A program made the translations under genes and the position numbers. Source: Spirochaetales bacterium (GTDB taxonomy: Bacteria; Spirochaetota; Spirochaetia; DSM-2461). From it: a stretch of DNA of 44,851 nucleotides. The stretch covers positions 1-44,851 of the forward strand of contig JAFGXR010000056.1 of the NCBI GenBank assembly GCA_016936555.1, read 5' to 3'. The notes under the pieces were generated by a model. The model was not told the origin of the DNA. It saw only the letters and a program-made list of their open reading frames with translations, and did no database searches. Positions within the stretch are counted from its first letter, which is position 1, and each line of letters starts with the position of its first letter. Below, one piece after another: positions 7,162 to 10,279 of this stretch.

Positions 7162-8241
7162 ATGAATGAAATCGTAAAAACAGCTGCCCGGATAAGGGGG
7201 CTTTCCTATAATAATGGCAACTGCGGTATTGTCTCTTTCTCAGCCGATGGAAAAGGGAATACCGACTCATTGAAATTGAAAACCCCGGAGAATCCCGAAG
7301 CCGGACTGGCTGTTGCTTTTAAAAAATACACTGATGAAAAAGGGCAGCCGCCCGCTTCGGTGGATATAGAGGGAATTGGTTTCTTCTCCATCGTTTATCC
7401 GGGAACCGTTTCCCCTTCGGTTCTGAACGGAAAAGTATCCGTTGTTACCGGCGGTGCCCAGGGATTCGGAGAGGGGCTTGTCCGGGATCTCGCAGAGCAG
7501 GGGAGCCTTGTCTTTATTGCCGATATGAATCTCAGCGGTGCGCAGGTTCTGGCTGACGATCTCAACGGTAAAGCGGGGAGGACAGTCGCTTACGCCGTGG
7601 AAGTCAATGTAACCGATGAAGAGTCGGTTGAAAAGATGATGGAAACCATTGCTCTCAGTGTCGGCGGAGTCGATGTTTTTATCAGCAATGCCGGTGTTCT
7701 CAAAGCCGGGAGTGTCAAAGAGATGTCATTGAAGGATTTCAACTTCGTCACTTCCGTAGATTATACGGGCTATTTCATCTGCACCAAGTTCGTATCACAA
7801 TTGATGGCTGAGCAGAACAAATACGCGCCGGATCATCTGACCGACATCATTCAGATCAACTCCAAATCGGGACTTGAAGGCTCCAATAAAAACGGGGCCT
7901 ATGCGGGAGCCAAGTTCGGCGGAATCGGCTTGACCCAGAGTTTCGCACTCGAGCTGATTTCTGACCGGATCAAGGTCAACTCCATCTGTCCGGGGAACTT
8001 TCTGGACGGGCCGCTCTGGTCCGATCCCGACAGAGGGCTGTTCGTCCAGTATCTGAACACCGGGAAGGTTCCGGGCGCGAAGACAATTGCCGATGTCCGG
8101 GCCTTTTACGAGGCGAAAGTGCCGATGAAAAGGGGCTGTACGACTGAAGATGTCATGAAGGCCGTGAGATACATCGTCGATCAGAAATATGAGACGGGTC
8201 AGGCGGTGCCCGTTACCGGAGGCCAGCTCATGCTCAACTGA
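7162..8241 (+). CDS. Short-chain dehydrogenase, sorbitol-6-phosphate dehydrogenase-like, with N-terminal extension
   Basis: Residues from about 90 onward form a classical SDR: cofactor motif TGGAQGFG, SNAGVL, catalytic Ser in INSKSGLEG and YAGAK (YxxxK). The closest impression is of sorbitol-6-phosphate 2-dehydrogenases and of the SDR half of aldolase-dehydrogenase fusions. About 90 extra residues precede the SDR. Their end (IEGIGFFSI) resembles the last strand of class II aldolase domains (GLGLF type), so the extension may be a remnant of a fused aldolase; this is inference. The ATG at 7162 has GAGGA ten bases upstream, whereas the in-frame ATG at 7153 lies only one base after it; either is possible. 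It is the last gene of the operon. A matching promoter element before the sorE-like gene at 11232 supports a role in polyol phosphate metabolism. Confidence 0.75.
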   Translation: MNEIVKTAARIRGLSYNNGNCGIVSFSADGKGNTDSLKLKTPENPEAGLAVAFKKYTDEKGQPPASVDIEGIGFFSIVYPGTVSPSVLNGKVSVVTGGAQGFGEGLVRDLAEQGSLVFIADMNLSGAQVLADDLNGKAGRTVAYAVEVNVTDEESVEKMMETIALSVGGVDVFISNAGVLKAGSVKEMSLKDFNFVTSVDYTGYFICTKFVSQLMAEQNKYAPDHLTDIIQINSKSGLEGSNKNGAYAGAKFGGIGLTQSFALELISDRIKVNSICPGNFLDGPLWSDPDRGLFVQYLNTGKVPGAKTIADVRAFYEAKVPMKRGCTTEDVMKAVRYIVDQKYETGQAVPVTGGQLMLN

Positions 8242-8339
8242 TTTTTATGGGGGCGCTAGCTGCGTTACTGAAAGACTCGTGTATAGAAATACACTTCGGC
8301 TTTCGGTGCCTTGCTAACACCTCCTCTAAAAATCAGTTG
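8235..8339. repeat. Long imperfect palindrome, terminator or REP/MITE-like element
   Basis: A perfect 13-bp inverted repeat, CAACTGATTTTTA (8235-8247) and TAAAAATCAGTTG (8327-8339), encloses a further imperfect stem. GCTAGC near 8255-8260 faces GCTAA near 8313-8317, GAAAG (8270-8274) faces CTTTC (8300-8304), and GTGTAT (8279-8284) faces ATACAC (8289-8294) around an AGAA loop. The whole 105-nt unit folds on itself and overlaps the stop codon of the SDR gene. It may end the upstream operon transcript. Its size and clean ends also fit a non-autonomous repeat. Confidence 0.65.
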
Positions 8340-8390
8340 CATTGGCATAAAGGGGAAGGCGCTGCGCTGTTCCCCTGATGGGGTGAAGTG

Positions 8391-8419
8391 TTGACAGGTT
8401 TCGGGGTTTGAGTTAATAG
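8391..8419 (+). promoter_or_regulatory. Predicted promoter of the trp leader-trpS transcript
   Basis: A perfect -35 TTGACA (8391-8396) is followed after 17 bp by TAATAG (8414-8419), a weak -10. The predicted start of transcription is at about 8426-8427, essentially on the ATG of the leader peptide. No Shine-Dalgarno sequence lies between, so the leader would be translated from a leaderless mRNA. Confidence 0.5.
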
Positions 8420-8426
8420 TTTATTC

Positions 8427-8489
8427 ATGAACAGGATTTCATTTGTAAAATTGAATAGTTTCATTCTCTGGTGGTGGCTGAACAGATAG
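8427..8489 (+). CDS. trpL: Tryptophan leader peptide of the trpS attenuator
   Basis: A 20-codon reading frame runs ATG to TAG and contains three consecutive TGG codons at positions 15-17 (8469-8477), giving the peptide ending ILWWWLNR. Three adjacent Trp codons in a tiny ORF just before a tryptophanyl-tRNA synthetase gene are the hallmark of ribosome-mediated attenuation. The stop codon lies inside the second RNA segment of the attenuator, so a ribosome finishing the peptide masks that segment. The ATG coincides with the predicted transcription start and has no ribosome-binding site, as in leaderless trp leaders of alpha-proteobacteria. Confidence 0.85.
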   Translation: MNRISFVKLNSFILWWWLNR

Positions 8490-8541
8490 CCGTCCGGAGA
8501 TAAATTAATATGGCGGCTCTTTTACAGCCGCGGTCTTTTTT
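8476..8541 (+). promoter_or_regulatory. Tryptophan transcription attenuator (segments 1-4)
   Basis: Mutually exclusive RNA helices can be read directly. Segment 1 GGCT (8476-8479, in the Trp codons) pairs with segment 2 AGCC (8488-8491). Segment 2 AGCCGTC (8488-8494) pairs with segment 3 GGCGGCT (8512-8518) as antiterminator. Segment 3 GCGGCT (8513-8518) pairs with segment 4 AGCCGC (8526-8531) as terminator, with a T-rich tract at 8534-8541. Stalling at the Trp codons would free segment 2 and favour antitermination. Completed translation would cover segment 2 and allow termination. Confidence 0.82.
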
Positions 8542-8552
8542 GTTTTGAGATA

Positions 8553-8583
8553 GAGCCGTGAGTTTTCGCGGTTCTTTTTTTTT
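8553..8583 (+). terminator. Second intrinsic terminator before trpS
   Basis: GAGCCGTG (8553-8560) pairs with CGCGGTTC (8567-8574) around a six-base loop, with two wobble pairs, and is followed by nine T (8575-8583). It lies between the attenuator and the trpS ribosome-binding site, so it must be read through for trpS expression. Its AGCCG could also pair with segment 3 of the attenuator, linking the two elements. Confidence 0.72.
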
Positions 8584-8607
8584 ATAAAAATTTTTAAGGG
8601 GTTTACA

Positions 8608-9636
8608 ATGGAGAATGGGAAAACGATTTTAACGGGGGACAGGCCGACGGGGCCTCTTCATTTAGGGCATTATGCAGGAAGCCTGAAGAAAAGGATTGAG
8701 CTTCAGGATCAGTTTCGGACTTTTATCGAGATCGCCGATGTACAGGCTTTGACTGATAATTTTCACAATCCGGGGGCTCTGAAAAGGAATGTCATGGAGG
8801 TGATGCTGGATTATCTTTCAGTTGGACTGGATCCGGAAAAGGTTACATTTGTTCTGCAATCACAAATTCCAGAGATTCATGAGTTATCTATTTATTTCCT
8901 CAATCTCGTTACCGTTTCCCGTGCTCTGAGAAATCCGACGGTGAAGAGCGAGATTTATGAGAAGAGAAACGATCCGGGGAAAATGAGCCATTTCGGTAAG
9001 GAACTGGATATTCCTCTTGGTTTTCTCATATATCCCGTACATCAAGCGGCTGATATCGCAGTTTTTGATGCGGACCTCGTTCCCGTCGGAAATGATCAAT
9101 TGCCTATGCTTGAACAGGCAAGGGAGATTGTTAGAAAATTCAATTCTCTTTATGGAGATGATATTCTGAAAATGCCGGAACCGGTACTCAGCGATTGTGA
9201 GAGACTGCCCGGCATTGACGGGCGGGCGAAGATGAGCAAATCTCTCAATAACGGCATTTATCTGAAGGATTCAAAAGAAACTGTTGAAAAGAAGATAAAA
9301 TCGCTGTTTACCGATCCCAAAAGAATACGGGCTGATATTCCGGGAGAAGTGGAAGGAAATCCGCTATTCATATATCATGACGCATTTAACCGGCATGCTG
9401 ACGAGGTTGAAGAGTTCAAGAGATTATATAAAGCCGGGAAGATTGGCGATATGCCTGTGAAAATGAGATTGATGGAGGAGATCAACGAATTCCTCGAACC
9501 CGTCAGGGAGAAGAGGGAGTCCTATCAGGGGAGAGAAAATCTGATTATTGAAATGTTGATGGATCAAAGTGCTGACGCAAGAAAAACAAGCTCGGCGGTT
9601 TTAAAGCGCGTGCGCAGGGTCGTGGGAATAATCTGA
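8608..9636 (+). CDS. trpS: Tryptophanyl-tRNA synthetase
   Basis: The class I aminoacyl-tRNA synthetase TrpRS, 342 residues, which is the usual length. The HIGH-type motif is HLGH within [16 protein letters not shown] near residue 15, and the KMSKS loop is KMSKS within [12 protein letters not shown] near residue 210. It charges tRNA-Trp in the cytoplasm. The ATG follows AAGGGG closely. The preceding leader peptide and attenuator would raise its expression when charged tRNA-Trp is low. A small membrane-protein gene follows after one base, so the two are co-transcribed and probably translationally coupled. Confidence 0.95.
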
Positions 9637-9637
9637 T

Positions 9638-10279
9638 ATGGATGGCAATGAAAAGAAAGGGAATTTTCAGGCGATAATTTCGATTATTCTCTGGTGTTTA
9701 AGCGGAGTCTGTTTCAGAAAGGGATCGGAAGTTTTCAAACCTATGACTTATCTGGCTCTTATAACGGGAATCGGTGTGCTGACTGCTGTTCTCATTCAGT
9801 ATCTGAGAAAGAAAAACCTGAAATCTCTCTTTTTTCTCCCAATGAAAGTTATTATTGCAGGTATTCCCGGGATCTCTATTTATACTGTGTTTCTGGCTTT
9901 TGCCGGTGACTTTTATCTTTCCAGACCTCAATGTCTGTTACCCCATATACTGGCTCTGACAGGCGGTTTCTTCTGGGCGGTTTATTCAGTAATGCTCAAG
10001 GTCCGGGAAATTCCTGATGAGCAGTCCGGTACGGCTTTTCATTTTACCTTTTGTTCTGTTTTATCTTTGATCATCGCTCTGATTCTGGGTGAGTTTTCTG
10101 AAATCCCCACTCTGACTGGAGAGTCGCTGTTCTGGATTATTCTCGGCGGTGTCGGTCCCGTTGGAATTGCCTATTACCTCTGGGAGCTGGGGTTGATACC
10201 CGGTGCCCTGATGATCGCGGCCGGAGCGTATGCCGTCAGAATGGCTGTTGCGGGAGTTGAGAAGCCGGAATCCTGTTGA
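9638..10279 (+). CDS. Shortened EamA/DMT-family transporter, possibly decayed
   Basis: A membrane protein of 213 residues with the signatures of the drug/metabolite transporter superfamily, close in flavour to aromatic amino acid exporters such as YddG. Visible segments match transmembrane helices 1-3 (about 10-26, 36-53, 70-90), 6-8 (about 98-120, 133-150, 162-185, including FFWAVYSVML and YYLWELGL) and the last helix (IPGALMIAAGAYAV). Normal members have about 290-300 residues and ten helices. The region for helices 4-5 (after FLAFAG) and for helix 9 (after WELGL) is missing, as if two in-frame deletions had occurred. Its start is one base after the trpS stop, so it shares the Trp-attenuated transcript. 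A tryptophan transport role fits the context, but the deletions make activity doubtful. Confidence 0.65.
   Translation: MDGNEKKGNFQAIISIILWCLSGVCFRKGSEVFKPMTYLALITGIGVLTAVLIQYLRKKNLKSLFFLPMKVIIAGIPGISIYTVFLAFAGDFYLSRPQCLLPHILALTGGFFWAVYSVMLKVREIPDEQSGTAFHFTFCSVLSLIIALILGEFSEIPTLTGESLFWIILGGVGPVGIAYYLWELGLIPGALMIAAGAYAVRMAVAGVEKPESC

Follow-up and report, generated by a model that had tools for sequence, protein, structure and literature searches.

A candidate ribosome-mediated attenuator before an auxiliary tryptophanyl-tRNA synthetase gene in a spirochaete

Attenuated trpS genes in other bacteria

Attenuators of the type considered here are already known outside the spirochaetes. According to Vecchione & Sello (2010, J Bacteriol 192:3565; as cited in PMC4787780), the gene for the auxiliary tryptophanyl-tRNA synthetase (TrpRS) TrpRS1 of Streptomyces coelicolor, which accompanies a housekeeping one and specifies an indolmycin-resistant product, is subject to ribosome-mediated transcriptional attenuation. 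Candidate attenuators with leader peptides have also been proposed for trpS2 of S. avermitilis (PMC1262725) and for trpL2-trpS of S. lividans, where the transcript is leaderless, as well as for trpL1-trpE of the latter species (PMC8079986), and in Caulobacter a leader coding sequence before trpS has been seen by ribosome profiling (PMC4117421). In the trpL-trpE(G) system of Sinorhizobium meliloti, the transcript starts at the leader AUG and carries tandem Trp codons and an intrinsic terminator (PMC7298713).

Here, we analysed a 44,851-nucleotide stretch of DNA from a Spirochaetales bacterium (the window), in which a trpS gene is preceded by a leader of this general design. We consider it highly probable that a ribosome-mediated transcription attenuator controls this auxiliary TrpRS gene. 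The computed basis of this reading consists of the sequence, the pairings, the in silico folding order, the second-copy status of the gene and conservation at the second copies of two other spirochaetes; from these we infer where transcription starts and from which promoter, that the leader is translated and stalls the ribosome, that transcription terminates, how a second terminator is passed and what the physiological trigger is. S. coelicolor TrpRS1 resembles the window in that an attenuated auxiliary gene stands beside a housekeeping one; the gene for this antibiotic-resistant Streptomyces enzyme is the closest functional precedent (PMC4787780). S. lividans and S. avermitilis share the leader peptide before trpS, and S. 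lividans also the leaderless transcript predicted here, but trpL2 contains one Trp codon and no U-rich tract, whereas the window has three consecutive Trp codons and two T-tracts (PMC8079986, PMC1262725). The S. meliloti leader likewise matches in tandem codons, terminator and the transcript start predicted for the window; however, it controls biosynthesis, with roles in trans for both its sRNA and its peptide, rather than trpS (PMC7298713).

In our upstream scans, related trpS genes of Proteobacteria were often preceded by Trp-Trp leaders; these occurred in Aeromonas, a deltaproteobacterium, a Klebsiella plasmid, Vibrio, Salinivibrio, two Burkholderia, Variovorax, Methylocystis, Proteus and a Salmonella record, several of the records labelled plasmids being megabase replicons. 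At nine loci (L221-L226 and L228-L230) such a leader precedes trpS, and at most of them an inverted repeat resembling a hairpin separates the two. Of the Trp-Trp trpS loci tested, none was matched above the cut-off by an Rfam leader model, and the leader was absent before trpS in the Acinetobacter and Acetobacter records and the Staphylococcus epidermidis plasmid copy. These proteobacterial loci resemble the window in the two Trp codons late in a short ORF, the inverted repeats before trpS and the same broad trpS type. Inspection by eye, however, showed G-rich segments 2 and 4 and a C-rich segment 3 in Klebsiella and Aeromonas, whereas in the window and the two other spirochaetes segment 2 contains AGCC and segment 3 GGCT. 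On the Klebsiella pneumoniae plasmid (L221), the trpS with its Trp-Trp leader directly follows two SMR efflux genes and precedes a gene for an HlyD-type adaptor. The original prediction had been aware of no described trpS attenuator of this kind in spirochaetes. Our literature search, with most subscription journals outside its scope, indeed found no spirochaete report, but the novelty does not extend to trpS attenuation as such, which is published for Streptomyces and frequent in the proteobacterial scans.

The leader and its alternative RNA structures

The features of the locus are listed in Table 1. The TTGACA of the predicted promoter lies 36 nt before the leader ATG, so that transcription would be expected to start at the A of the AUG, and the start site, placed by promoter spacing, is predicted at or adjoining 8427. 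The resulting mRNA would be leaderless, in line with the absence of a Shine-Dalgarno sequence at the leader ORF, which is probably translated in this manner. As in trp-type attenuators, the amino acid to be sensed is encoded by adjacent codons in the ORF. When the complete intergenic sequence (8242-8607) was subjected to 5000 dinucleotide shuffles, a short ORF with three consecutive Trp codons close to its end arose 3 times and one with two such codons 116 times; a triple-Trp leader is thus expected by chance in fewer than 1 in 1000 cases.

Table 1. Coordinates of the predicted features of the trpS locus in the window
Feature	Position	Strand	Details
Sigma-70 promoter (predicted)	8391..8420	+	TTGACA, 18 nt, AATAGT (or 17 nt, TAATAG)
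Leader ORF	8427..8489	+	MNRISFVKLNSFILWWWLNR, then stop; 20 codons
1:2 stem	8466..8498	+	outer helix 8466-8471/8493-8498 (from fold) and 8476-8479/8488-8491
Sensing site, three consecutive TGG	8469..8477	+	codons 15-17 of 20
2:3 antiterminator	8488..8518	+	8488-8494 with 8512-8518; 7 pairs, one G-U
3:4 terminator (T1)	8513..8541	+	8513-8518 with 8526-8531, then T-rich tract GGTCTTTTTTGTTTT
Second intrinsic terminator (T2)	8552..8583	+	AGAGCCGTGAGTTTTCGCGGTTCT; 10-pair stem 8552-8575, then T-tract
Second trpS, tryptophan--tRNA ligase	8608..9636	+	TIGR00233, 253.6 bits (cut-off 176.75); HIGH-type and KMSKS motifs intact
YddG-like EamA transporter remnant	9638..10279	+	in-frame losses of ~56 and ~35 residues

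The 20-codon ORF with its three TGG codons and the 1:2, 2:3 and 3:4 pairings of the original prediction were all recovered where it had placed them. The three pairings are mutually exclusive, with 3:4 serving as an intrinsic terminator, and the layout, the pairings and the conservation at second copies together support the classical ribosome-mediated Trp attenuator that it had proposed. The set is not complete as first described, since the outer helix of the 1:2 stem and the stronger T2, which lies beyond the canonical set, had been missed; the stem energies are -14.0 kcal/mol for T2 versus -8.7 for T1. The leader folds with a z-score of -2.6, an equally good fold being found in 2 of 200 shuffles, and the 1:2 stem is predicted to form when the leader is unoccupied.

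A T-box riboswitch, defined by a T-box sequence and a specifier stem in the 5′ leader, had not been seen in the letters and was rejected here for want of an Rfam match: neither a T-box nor any other Rfam family reached its cut-off across the window, and a search of the leader region with E values up to 5 returned no T-box. Matches to BjrC1505 and RcsR1, at 23.2 and 15.8 bits against cut-offs of 50 and 60, were likewise rejected as support for the leader.

In the mechanism that we propose, transcription would start at or beside the leader AUG. With charged Trp-tRNA, the ribosome would read through the three UGG codons, reach the UAG at 8487-8489 and cover segment 2 (8488-8494), so that segment 3 would pair with segment 4 and transcription would stop at T1, with T2 as a further stop if T1 failed. 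With uncharged tRNA-Trp, as under Trp starvation or in the presence of a TrpRS inhibitor, the ribosome would stall at 8469-8477, and segment 2, left free, would pair with segment 3 while segment 4 had yet to be transcribed; T1 would not form, the polymerase would continue towards trpS, and the product, a spare TrpRS, would restore charging. Either cue may be the trigger, and the enzyme may have a role in drug tolerance.

The coordinates agree with this geometry. Segment 2 starts 10 nt past the final Trp codon and shares positions with the UAG stop, so that a ribosome of generally accepted footprint size would leave it free when stalled and cover it when at the stop codon. In cotranscriptional folding in silico, in which the RNA was grown and the segment beneath the stalled ribosome removed, the 2:3 helix formed first (-9.6 kcal/mol) once segment 3 had emerged, before 3:4, and stayed the best structure until segment 4 was nearly complete; thereafter, 3:4 was better at equilibrium. 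Such a kinetic window is usual in attenuation.

The second terminator fits this scheme less readily. Even when the 2:3 helix was kept in place, T2 was favoured at equilibrium (-26.1 kcal/mol versus -21.1 to -23.5 for the alternatives that open it), so that 2:3 pairing does not account for passage of the polymerase through T2. Positions 8529-8537 can pair with 8552-8561, a weaker alternative to T2. The polymerase may get past T2 because this pairing imposes a kinetic delay or because termination there is incomplete; alternatively, the unit may have lost its function. Separately, 8514-8520 is a perfect 7-nt complement of 8552-8558, in the 5′ part of T2.

Second trpS copies in spirochaetes

The original prediction correctly named trpS as the target but did not recognize it as an extra copy. 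The window ORF is full length, and a housekeeping trpS, 33% identical to it, lies elsewhere in the genome (G000:C126:5737-6723), the arrangement seen with S. coelicolor TrpRS1. The housekeeping type is found throughout the genus and family, and in the tree this copy groups with those of G002 and G007 with full support, whereas the window copy sits in a different, widely distributed TrpRS group. The Trp leader is absent before the trpE and the housekeeping trpS of the same genome. The window gene is a second copy, probably gained laterally, whose product is likely a TrpRS for emergencies, induced once tRNA-Trp is left uncharged.

Among the results from 395 genomes drawn from the class, two divergent full-length trpS genes were present in four: that of the window (G000), G007, G043 and G478. 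Leaders of the same layout, MNRNFDGYSFSSHNSRLNWWRPAQ and MVIAPINNNRSTNLSWWWLK, each followed by a stop, precede the second trpS of G007 (L134) and that of G043 (L136) and end 119 and 121 nt before the gene, compared with 118 nt in the window; the three leaders span 20-24 codons, and in all three TTGACA starts exactly 36 nt before the leader ATG, which predicts a leaderless mRNA for each. The 2:3 helix is retained throughout (-9.2 to -10.6 kcal/mol), with standard pairs in 21 of 21 cells, one pair changed on both sides (G-C to A-U) and two on one side. Pair counts were made on an alignment cut to this helix, MAFFT having slid segment 2 of L136 by one base; as many pairs were reached in 146 of 500 shuffles, which is not significant with only three similar sequences. 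The check suggested with the original prediction, an alignment of related spirochaetes, thus found Trp codons, pairing and promoter spacing kept at both second copies, in a comparison of three sequences whose shuffle control is not significant. The window leader region is closer to L134 and L136 than to their shuffles, with z-scores of 4.6 and 5.2, values that shared function alone may suffice to raise.

A Trp-Trp leader occurs at none of 89 further distinct trpS loci from spirochaetes, among them the housekeeping copies of the window genome, G007 and G043; G478 has no such leader at either of its divergent copies; and a search of 393 genomes of the phylum with the leader pattern returned, besides the window, matches only at the level of the reversed control. 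At L136, the leader layout and the 2:3 helix are shared but no U-tract follows the 3:4 hairpin, so that termination there would not be of the standard intrinsic kind and would need another means.

In the TrpRS tree, the window enzyme and those of L134 and L136 fall in different groups, so that the attenuator follows the status of a gene as second copy, not the lineage of its enzyme. Across both TrpRS types, the leaders agree in layout, in the spacing of the promoter and in the polarity of their pairing segments. A broader reading, which we advance only tentatively and regard as rather doubtful, is that the Trp attenuator of spirochaetes marks a spare trpS whatever its TrpRS lineage, that regulator and enzyme have had separate histories, and that the unit is an inducible switch for tolerance of TrpRS inhibitors.

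The fate of the unit and its meaning

The flanking genes are adjacent and collinear in the genus mates G001 and G002, with no trpS between them, so that a unit of ~1.9 kb, which includes its own predicted promoter and attenuator, was either gained here or lost there. The downstream ORF, originally taken for a transporter under the same control, is probably not a working gene: compared with intact YddG-like homologues, reading frames of 302 and 340 codons in G001:C14 and G003:C443 (L216-L218), it is an internally deleted remnant, which hints that this part of the unit is decaying. In another genus mate, G003, a trpS relic of 36 residues, 58% identical to the window type, lies between other genes (G003:C92; L133 1199-1306).

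These observations bear on the most serious alternative, namely, that the attenuator was once functional and is now being lost, leaving trpS either silent or with low, constant expression. The two deletions in the YddG-like gene, the lone relic in G003 and the failure of the 2:3 helix to melt T2 at equilibrium would all fit such decay, but the trpS ORF is full length with its motifs intact, as are the promoter, the Trp codons, the position of the leader stop and each of the three pairings, and pairing of 8529-8537 with 8552-8561 could delay T2 during transcription. We therefore regard decay of the regulator as improbable.

A further possibility is that there is no regulator at all, T1 and T2 being tandem terminators of the upstream srlD-like operon, which ends at 8241, and the triple-Trp ORF a product of chance. 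Both hairpins follow that operon and resemble intrinsic terminators. However, directly 3′ of the srlD-like gene lies a separate, long imperfect hairpin (8242-8345), present in a single copy in the genome; a hairpin whose loop is similar occupies the matching place in genus mates, among them G001 and G002, from which the unit is absent. With the rarity of such a leader among shuffles and the matching design at the second trpS of two other spirochaetes, this explanation becomes very unlikely. Least credible of all is that the leader acts mainly in trans, or through translation or Rho, in the manner of peTrpL/rnTrpL of Sinorhizobium, and not by terminating transcription intrinsically in cis. An sRNA and a peptide that act in trans can arise from leaderless leader mRNAs of this type (PMC7298713), and L136 lacks the U-tract of a standard intrinsic terminator, but the window has two intrinsic terminators with T-tracts, no target is known, and the sub-threshold BjrC1505 and RcsR1 matches do not count as evidence.

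The attenuator of an auxiliary trpS, as proposed here for the window, would add spirochaetes to the bacteria in which leader-peptide attenuation controls an aminoacyl-tRNA synthetase, and would tie it there to second trpS copies. Trp-Trp leaders before trpS look far commoner than Rfam shows, and the rule suggested by these loci is that an extra synthetase under attenuation may be an emergency or drug-tolerant enzyme.
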